Shown here: piece by piece, positions 46,806 through 48,591 of the stretch
Position numbering within the stretch: position 1 is the stretch's first letter
Layout of the letters: the number at the start of each line of letters is the position of its first letter
Source of the DNA: a virus
IMG/VR virus record: IMGVR_UViG_3300047496_000057
Coordinates: 1-48,591 of that record
DNA length: 48,591 nucleotides
Direction: 5' to 3' (one strand)
Translations under genes and position numbers: made by a program
The notes under the pieces: model-generated
What the model was told of the DNA's origin: nothing
What the model saw: the letters and a program-made list of their open reading frames with translations, nothing else
Database searches by the model: none

Positions 46806-47437
46806 GCCGGTGTTATAGTTAAGTAATACAGTGTGAGTATTAAGTTTGTATTAAGTTTTCGTAATGTTAGCCTGGGCAGGAACTGTGCCAGGGGACAGTC
46901 CAGGGATTATTAAGTTTATGTAATGTTCAGGCCCAGTCCCCCTGCCTGACTACAGCCAACCGCACACGAACCCGACTTTACCGTCCCCTACCGGACACGA
47001 ACCTGTCCAGGGACTAACCAGTAAAATAACTTTATTAAATTCCGTTAATAATCCGGTATCTGGCATATTTAATTCCAGGAAAATATCCGGCCAACTCAGG
47101 CCCAGCCAGATTAAACTTTCATTAAATATATTTAACTGGACAGGACCTGATAACCCAGGGCCGGAAAACCCGGAATTAAAAACTGTACCAGCAGGGTATA
47201 AACTTTATTAATTATTCATTACAGAAAATTAACTGGACAGGGACAGAAACCCCAGACCGGGCAGACCAGTTCAGAAAATCCTGACCTGGTACAGTTAATT
47301 TCCATTAAAAATACTTAATAAACTAACCCTGGTATTCCTGTAATATATCTGGGCCGGGACAGTATTTTCCCGGTCAGTTCCCTGGTCTGATTACCAGGCC
47401 TGTTACCAGGTAACAGGATTTACAGGAGTACAGTCAG
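46806..47437. other. Gene-poor AT/CCWGG-rich stretch, possible replication origin
   Basis: No open frame of interest on either strand. It alternates AT-rich runs and C/G-rich runs with recurring words: ATTAAGTTT three times (46830-46930), AACTTTATTAA twice (47029 and 47207 regions), TTAACTGGACAGG twice. The repeated AT-rich words next to a primase-helicase gene and a long inverted repeat would fit an origin with iterons. This is inference from position only. Confidence 0.4.
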
Positions 47438-47827
47438 ATGCCCAGACAGCAGACAGCCCAGCCCAGTCAGGACCAGGTAATCCCTGGTTCCCTGATCCTG
47501 GCAATTCCCAGCCAGCAGCCCAGCCAGAAACCGGCCCGGTCCCGGAAACCCCAGGGTCTGGGAAACCCCCAGGCGAAAAAACTGGTTAACCCCCAGGTTA
47601 CCCTGGAACTGAAAAAATCAGCAGCTGCTGGTACCGGTTCCCTGCTGACCTGGCAGGCCCGGTCCTGGGTCCTGATTTACCAGGACCAGACCCGGGTCCA
47701 GATTTCCAGCAGGGAACTGGCAGCCCTGTCCCTGGCAGATTTTCTGTCCCGGTACTGCAATCCCAGTACCAGCCCCTGTTATCTGTACCAGGATAAAAAC
47801 CTGATACCGGCCCAGACCAGGGTCTGA
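47438..47827 (+). CDS. Hypothetical protein, 129 aa, unusual codon use
   Basis: AGGAG lies 8 nt before the ATG. The first 60 residues are Gln/Pro/Ser/Lys-rich and disordered. Residues 62-125 look globular (W-Q-A-R-S-W-V-L-I-Y-Q-D, L-A-D-F-L-S-R-Y-C). Codons follow the CCWGG/CCGG vocabulary of the surrounding DNA. Function unknown; possibly a recent or foreign gene. Confidence 0.55.
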   Translation: MPRQQTAQPSQDQVIPGSLILAIPSQQPSQKPARSRKPQGLGNPQAKKLVNPQVTLELKKSAAAGTGSLLTWQARSWVLIYQDQTRVQISSRELAALSLADFLSRYCNPSTSPCYLYQDKNLIPAQTRV

Positions 47828-47899
47828 CCAGACAGACAGGTACAGGGCAGTCCGGTCAGGGGTATCCCTGGCCGGACTGTTTTTTGCCGGTCAGTCTGG

Positions 47900-48031
47900 G
47901 AATAAGTTAAGTCAGGGTCTGTCCCTGGCTGGACTGTTTCCAGGATTCTGTTAAATCAGGGTCTGGAATAAGTTAAGTCAGGGTCTGTCCCTGGCTGGAC
48001 TGTTTCCAGGATTCTGTTAAATCAGGGTCTG
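47900..48031. repeat. Two tandem 66-bp direct repeats
   Basis: 47900-47965 is repeated at 47966-48031 without visible change. A shorter part (TCTGTCCCTGGCTG) recurs once more from 48028. The 299-bp gap between the flanking genes is almost filled by this block. CCAGGATTCTGTTAA also recurs at about 48427. No gene was seen. Confidence 0.9.
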
Positions 48032-48126
48032 TCCCTGGCTGACCTGGGAAAAATCTGGGCCAGAATGTAATAGTCCAGGAAATATATTTAAGTCAGGGTT
48101 TTAAAGTTTAAACAGGAGTATTAGTT

Positions 48127-48336
48127 ATGAATAAGTTAGAACAGGTATTCGTTAAAGTAAAGGAATTTAAAACTGGAAAGGGAAAGTCCCTGACCAGGGA
48201 CCAGGAACTGGACTTTTACCGGAACCTGGCACATTCCCTGTACGAAAATTACCCCTCACGAAACCCGGACTTTTCCGGTTCCCCTGACGAAATTCTGGAC
48301 CAGGAACTGGATAACTTAAGTCAGCAGTACAGTTAA
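48127..48336 (+). CDS. Hypothetical charged protein, 69 aa
   Basis: ACAGGAGTATTAG precedes the ATG, the same leader as the last gene of the window. A charged helical protein (V-K-V-K-E-F-K, D-Q-E-L-D-F-Y-R-N-L). No family was recognised. The codons use the CCWGG-rich vocabulary less strictly than the previous gene. Confidence 0.6.
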   Translation: MNKLEQVFVKVKEFKTGKGKSLTRDQELDFYRNLAHSLYENYPSRNPDFSGSPDEILDQELDNLSQQYS

Positions 48337-48338
48337 AA

Positions 48339-48424
48339 AAAAAGGGTTGGTTATCCGGTTGTCTGGCCCTGGCAGTTATTAAGTTAGCTGACCAGGGCCA
48401 GGTAGTTGGAAAAAGGGTTGGTTA
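48339..48424. repeat. 15-bp direct repeat flanking a 10-bp inverted repeat
   Basis: AAAAAGGGTTGGTTA occurs at 48339-48353 and 48410-48424. Between them CTGGCCCTGG (48363-48372) is perfectly complementary to CCAGGGCCAG (48392-48401) with a 19-nt loop. It may be a terminator or processing hairpin between two small genes, or part of the repeat family of this end. Confidence 0.8.
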
Positions 48425-48484
48425 CCCAGGATTCTGTTAAAAAAAGTCAGGTAAAAAAGTGAGTAAATACAGGAGTATTATGTA

Positions 48485-48591
48485 ATGTCAGTTAATTTTA
48501 AGTTAGGGACCAGACTGGATAGCCAGGGGTTTGCTGTAGTGTGCGGGGGGTTTAGCTGGAAGGGGATGTTCGTTACAGACCCTGCCCTGGA
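48485..48591 (+). CDS. Partial CDS running off the right edge
   Basis: ACAGGAGTATTATGTA precedes an ATG at 48485, the same leader as the gene at 48127. The open frame continues to the window end, giving about 35 residues (M-S-V-N-F-K-L-G-T-R-L-D-S start). The tail of the visible sequence is Gly/Phe-rich. Too short to identify. Confidence 0.5.
   Translation, partial: MSVNFKLGTRLDSQGFAVVCGGFSWKGMFVTDPAL

Follow-up and report, generated by a model that had tools for sequence, protein, structure and literature searches.

What kind of process could have written one end of a phage genome in a vocabulary of its own? The window that we analyzed is an entire virus record of 48,591 b, that of a tailed phage with its terminase subunits, major head protein, tail sheath and endolysin encoded on the minus strand. 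A sequence-only reading of this DNA had reported that word use changes abruptly at about 46.8 kb, beyond which CCWGG and CCGG are abundant and several trinucleotides are nearly missing. Our analysis confirms this observation, and the real regularity is wider and stronger than first described.

A three-base rule with separate limits on each strand

In 47,281–48,120 there are 26 CCWGG sites, compared with 1.64 expected at equal base frequencies, and 13 of 14 CpG dinucleotides lie in CCGG. GTG, CAC and TCG do not occur in this interval, CGA and CAT occur once each, and ATG occurs twice. All of these counts bear out what the sequence-only reading had noticed. The profile is also not common to the rest of the window, where CCWGG occurs at 2.26 per kb and no 840-b scan window holds more than 9 sites.

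These words are part of a single rule, in which the two bases after any run of C are a non-C base and G. Equivalently, the trinucleotide CDH (C, then a base other than C, then a base other than G) and its complement DHG are missing, so that both strands avoid CDH. Depletion extends to each of the nine CDH trinucleotides and to its complement, and the richness in CCWGG and CCGG is a by-product of this avoidance. The rule is broken at 21 of 305 testable sites (6.9%) in 47,051–48,065, whereas before 46,801, outside the zone, it is broken at 5737 of 7963 sites on the plus strand (72%) and 5879 of 8238 on the minus strand (71%). In 500 order-1 Markov sequences generated with the core's own dinucleotides, a mean of 71% of sites were broken, with a minimum of 61%. 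The rule was defined and tested on the same data and is in that sense post hoc, but the effect lies far outside any control. The zone extends for at least 1.66 kb at one end of the record, and no long-range periodicity was seen.

The vocabulary does change at about 46.8 kb, as had been reported, but not at one point, because the two strands switch separately. Unsupervised segmentation of each strand on its own gave the boundaries listed in Table 1, with switch points at 46,925/46,930 for minus-strand Cs and at 47,120/47,136 for plus-strand Cs, and with the minus strand relaxing past 48,063. In 46,930–47,130 the rule is broken at 20 of 35 plus-strand sites and 2 of 22 minus-strand sites (Fisher P = 0.0003). 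The bias has the opposite sign in 48,064–48,591 once the 69-aa gene is set aside, where 1 of 25 plus-strand and 34 of 57 minus-strand sites are broken (Fisher P = 1e-6). Across 465 200-b windows in the rest of the record, the difference between strands is at most 0.23. The strand pattern thus resembles two overlapping, oppositely directed fields with a centre near 47.6 kb.

Table 1. Features of the zone and its neighbor, with the intervals in which each strand obeys the rule
Feature	Position	Strand	Remarks
PrimPol-helicase gene	44,387–46,396	+	Prim-Pol, PriCT_2, AAA_25 and C-terminal winged HTH domains; normal vocabulary; neighbor of the zone and candidate partner
Short leading stretch, plus strand only obeys	46,801–46,929	+	broken 1/11 (plus) vs 17/26 (minus); at odds with a simple scheme of two intervals
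Minus-strand Cs obey	46,930–48,063	−	broken 10/165; segmentation
Two iteron-like 17-mers CCWACCGSACACGAACC, 31 b apart	46,956–47,003	+	cluster of rule-breaking sites
Overlap, both strands obey	47,131–48,063		broken 8/143 on each strand
Plus-strand Cs obey	47,136–48,591 (record end)	+	broken 20/197; segmentation
129-aa orphan ORF	47,438–47,827	+	entirely rule-spelled; ACAGGAG upstream, ATG start
Intrinsic-terminator-like hairpin and T6	47,850–47,885	+	directly 3' of the 129-aa ORF
Perfect 66-b tandem duplication	47,899–48,030		inside the rule-bound zone
69-aa orphan ORF	48,127–48,336	+	ACAGGAG; partial obedience, broken 11/29 and 12/30
5' part of a further ORF	48,485–48,591	+	ACAGGAG; truncated at record end

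Genes and other elements within the zone

The 129-aa ORF looks like a gene because 32 of its 54 CAG/CTG words are in frame (P = 8e-5); in DNA generated by the rule, an open frame of this length arises at 199 of 8517 positions. It encodes Gln by CAG in 17 of 17 cases, Leu by CTG in 15 of 15 and Lys by AAA in 7 of 7, which illustrates the extent to which a gene can be respelled. The rule is kept in codon positions 1 to 3, and we therefore reject a codon-level cause. A single-sequence fold of the product had low confidence (mean pLDDT 46.5). The sequence-only reading had described the altered vocabulary as running through coding and noncoding DNA alike; the rule does extend over noncoding DNA and the 129-aa ORF, but the 69-aa gene obeys only in part. 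Neither product had a convincing homologue in phages, plasmids, viral contigs, Pfam, PHROGs or PADLOC, and the 69-aa ORF had none in genome contigs either. We list 16 exceptions to the rule in 47,121–48,065, a figure that counts one GCGA site twice; the GGAG and ATG belonging to the 129-aa ORF account for two of them.

The iteron-like pattern has 2 matches in the window, a number reached in 3 of 100 shuffles, and the pattern was picked post hoc. Its surroundings have the arrangement looked for at an iteron origin, in that the initiator-like PrimPol-helicase-HTH adjoins AT-rich DNA (GC 0.37–0.43 in 47,000–47,399).

We considered folding as a driver of the composition and set it aside, since the rule itself seems to account for the folding except around the 66-b tandem repeat. 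Compared with rule-made expectation, z was 0.04 for 47,401–47,885 and 0.84 for 47,051–47,400. Of the three segments tested, only 47,886–48,126, which holds the duplication, showed folding in excess of what the rule yields (z = −2.6). A large folding z arose against shuffles that break the rule.

Modelling of the core composition

A sampler that imposed the rule with no base preference produced a GC content of 0.49–0.51 (core, 0.510) and a trinucleotide correlation of 0.95. Beyond this rule-only model, CCAG/CTGG, TTAA and GAC/GTC are higher in the core and CCCC/GGGG are lower. In a pseudo-likelihood log-linear fit to the core, the terms were −2.9 ± 0.3 for CDH and −3.05 ± 0.4 for DHG, with −0.07 ± 0.3 for CWG, −0.3 ± 0.2 for CSG and 0.13 ± 0.07 for GC. 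The near-zero CNG terms lead us to reject selection for CNG, as opposed to selection against CDH.

Simulated mutational processes were also compared with the core. Deamination of C to T was rejected, since it drove GC to 0.02–0.06 and still left 60–75% of sites broken, whereas the core has a GC content of 0.51. Active writing of CNG raised GC to 0.71–0.75 and was likewise rejected, and random loss of C failed on either GC or violation rate. At the higher rate, destroying sites at any of their three bases ended with a GC content of 0.47 and 19% of sites in violation. Together, the simulations and the fit indicate that the zone avoided or lost sites, and that it was neither decayed nor target-enriched. 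Within the framework of this modelling, the core has the composition expected if sites are avoided and bases are otherwise unbiased.

Explanations for the zone

The counts above establish that the rule exists, how strong it is, that it does not depend on codon frame and that the strand intervals are offset. The explanation that we favor, and put forward only tentatively, is that a strand-specific enzyme reading three bases purged the zone of CDH strand by strand. In such a model, the duplex would be opened in the zone by replication or transcription, and the enzyme would act on the opened DNA. One possibility is a single-stranded DNA endonuclease cutting at C; another is a primase that uses CDH-type triplets as start sites, for which the adjacent PrimPol would be the nearest candidate. 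Wherever a strand was exposed, selection might remove the sites used, or they might disappear through repeated cutting and repair, and elements unable to change would be expected to persist as exceptions. The GGAG and ATG exceptions fit this idea, and the iteron-like pair is another cluster. We consider it possible, yet doubtful, that an undescribed CDH-specific activity, either a primase start rule or a single-stranded DNA nuclease, purged both strands around a phage replication start. A link to replication is possible in view of the adjacent PrimPol-helicase, the strand-asymmetric compliance and the switch of GC skew from negative to positive near 47.8 kb. Several points count against the favored explanation. 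The PrimPol gene, 400–2,500 b from the zone, does not follow the rule, and in 46,801–46,929 it is the other strand that complies than a single bidirectional start would predict. The iteron-like pair is weak, and the collections searched yielded neither a second example nor a homologue.

A C-specific single-stranded DNA endonuclease would leave the same footprint as a primase. T4 endonuclease IV, a dC-specific single-stranded DNA endonuclease, resembles the activity proposed here in that its cutting is strand-specific and falls at a C within a given trinucleotide setting, although it has a different context preference. No gene for a dC-specific single-stranded DNA endonuclease was recognized among the proteins searched. 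We know of no enzyme of CDH specificity and identified none in this analysis; we likewise know of no CDH or DHG priming specificity.

Regarding primases, two papers describe enzymes that read triplets on one strand (PMC5204125, PMC8718748). In C. difficile, primase-recognition trinucleotides show a strand skew (PMC5204125). That effect is, like the one in the zone, trinucleotide-based and strand-specific, and it is there tied to priming; it is, however, a chromosome-wide skew in single triplets, whereas in the zone nine triplets are nearly absent over ~1.5 kb. PrimPol template motifs are GTG for ORF904 and GTGA/GTGG for NrS-1 (PMC8718748). The likeness is that a Prim-Pol-type enzyme adjoins the zone and that GTG is among the missing triplets, but others, such as ACG, are missing to the same extent.

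If our favored explanation is correct, the footprint would give both the specificity of the agent and the zone of strand exposure. A near-absolute three-base rule that covers a different interval on each strand of a coding and regulatory segment points to an agent whose trinucleotide specificity is legible from sequence. Should that agent be a primase or a nuclease, composition alone would mark single-strand exposure in a phage.

The strongest rival is import or chimeric joining, in which the end of the record comes from an unsampled replicon that obeys the rule genome-wide; we regard this origin as conceivable but uncertain. The vocabulary switch falls just past the end of the plus-strand operon, the ribosome-binding sites ACAGGAGTA of three of three zone ORFs are unlike those of most phage genes, and these ORFs lack homologues, with a best plasmid match at E = 0.08, all of which would suit a foreign segment. 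However, the switch points of the strands lie 200 b from each other, and the sense of the switch is reversed from one flank to the other; such offset intervals are not predicted by a simple chimeric joint or splice. The rule of the donor would, moreover, need explaining in its turn.

Nor was a donor found. The sequence-only reading had suggested searching for donor genomes by shared vocabulary, and three viral patterns (10, 38 and 28 loci) and one genome pattern (47 loci) retrieved no DNA with the rule from these collections, since none of the 76 viral or 47 species-genome loci carries it. By a fitted chain, a 2-Mb genome so written should yield about five matches with the genome pattern, and more than ~160 kb of rule-bound DNA in the viral collection should have shown up; both expectations are optimistic because this core served to fit the chain and because two of the viral patterns overlap. 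Across 215 other fetched loci (2.33 Mb, 22,377 overlapping 500-b windows, leaving out a locus identical to the window itself), the rule was absent, and the lowest window had 43% of sites broken. BLAST against phages and plasmids returned no match for the zone. The rule was also absent from the DNA examined for the best 80 of 544 terminase relatives (61–69% identity) and from the DNA beside the PrimPol gene in ten of 197 matching phage records, where the lowest 500-b window stood at 46%. A 17-b word from the tandem repeat matched two viral loci, both without the rule. A narrow search of the open-access literature found no description of such a zone, though one may be in print. No other system that obeys such a rule is known to us, and the rule is so far seen in one record only.

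Avoidance at the RNA level, in which a C-specific endoribonuclease cuts CDH in overlapping sense and antisense transcripts and both strands are purged as a result, seems unlikely to us. It would fit four of four strand segments, including 46,801–46,929, provided that a leftward transcript runs from ~47.9 to 46.9 kb, and one minus-strand promoter-like site lies at 47,153–47,125. Promoter-like sites are nevertheless at chance level (5 found, 5.0 expected), there is no leftward gene, an unseen antisense transcript is needed, and CDH abounds in the phage's own PrimPol mRNA.

An assembly artefact or synthetic DNA is less probable still. The zone is known from a single record, at a contig end, and has no relatives in the collections searched, but a ribosome-binding site, a start codon, three-base periodicity and a terminator are all in place, and the flanks are gradual and strand-specific.

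We give little credence to classical restriction-site avoidance in a leading segment. Phage genomes are known to avoid restriction sites, as in T7 and in the first-step-transfer DNA of T5, and in these cases, as in the zone, short words are lost locally or with a strand bias. Here too the effect is local and near one end, and many palindromes are missing (ACGT, CATG, CGCG, CTAG, GCGC and TCGA each occur 0 times in 46,801–48,591). In contrast to such avoidance, the zone is depleted, by about tenfold in its core, of a single degenerate class of trinucleotides, and the palindromes CCGG and GGCC are strongly enriched, together with CCWGG; TTAA is enriched as well. The depletion is not confined to palindromes, with CAA/TTG and CTC/GAG about sixfold down in 46,801–48,591, and the flanks are strand-specific, unlike palindrome loss, which would be alike on both strands.

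Least credible of all is mutation by C-to-T deamination or by methylation with Dcm/Vsr-like repair: Dcm/Vsr biology acts on CCWGG, and the excess of CCWGG and TTAA with loss of CTAG recalls it, but the zone permits CAG, CTG and CCGG equally, the effect is local and bears no C-to-T signature, and the collapse of GC under simulated C-to-T loss tells against the Dcm-type methylation that the sequence-only reading had raised.

Several other features of the record may be mentioned. Directly 3' of the PrimPol gene lies a long CACACACTCATATACACC-type hairpin (46,425–46,491); an Rfam search gave only matches below gathering score, and the weak miRNA-family matches of this hairpin probably reflect its shape alone. 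A single tRNA-Thr (TGT) gene adjoins the terminase genes (42,960–43,035, minus strand), and a repetitive 1900-aa protein rich in Ser, Asn and Gly, without a PHROG match, is encoded at 30,695–36,397 (minus strand) and is perhaps a fibre. On the plus strand, 1,129–1,707 encodes a MazG/dUTPase_2-like nucleotide pyrophosphohydrolase, and 2,362–3,669 encodes a protein that matches PHROG 850 (RNA-binding, E = 3e-40), which we take to be the TROVE/Ro60-like family, one that is rare in phages.
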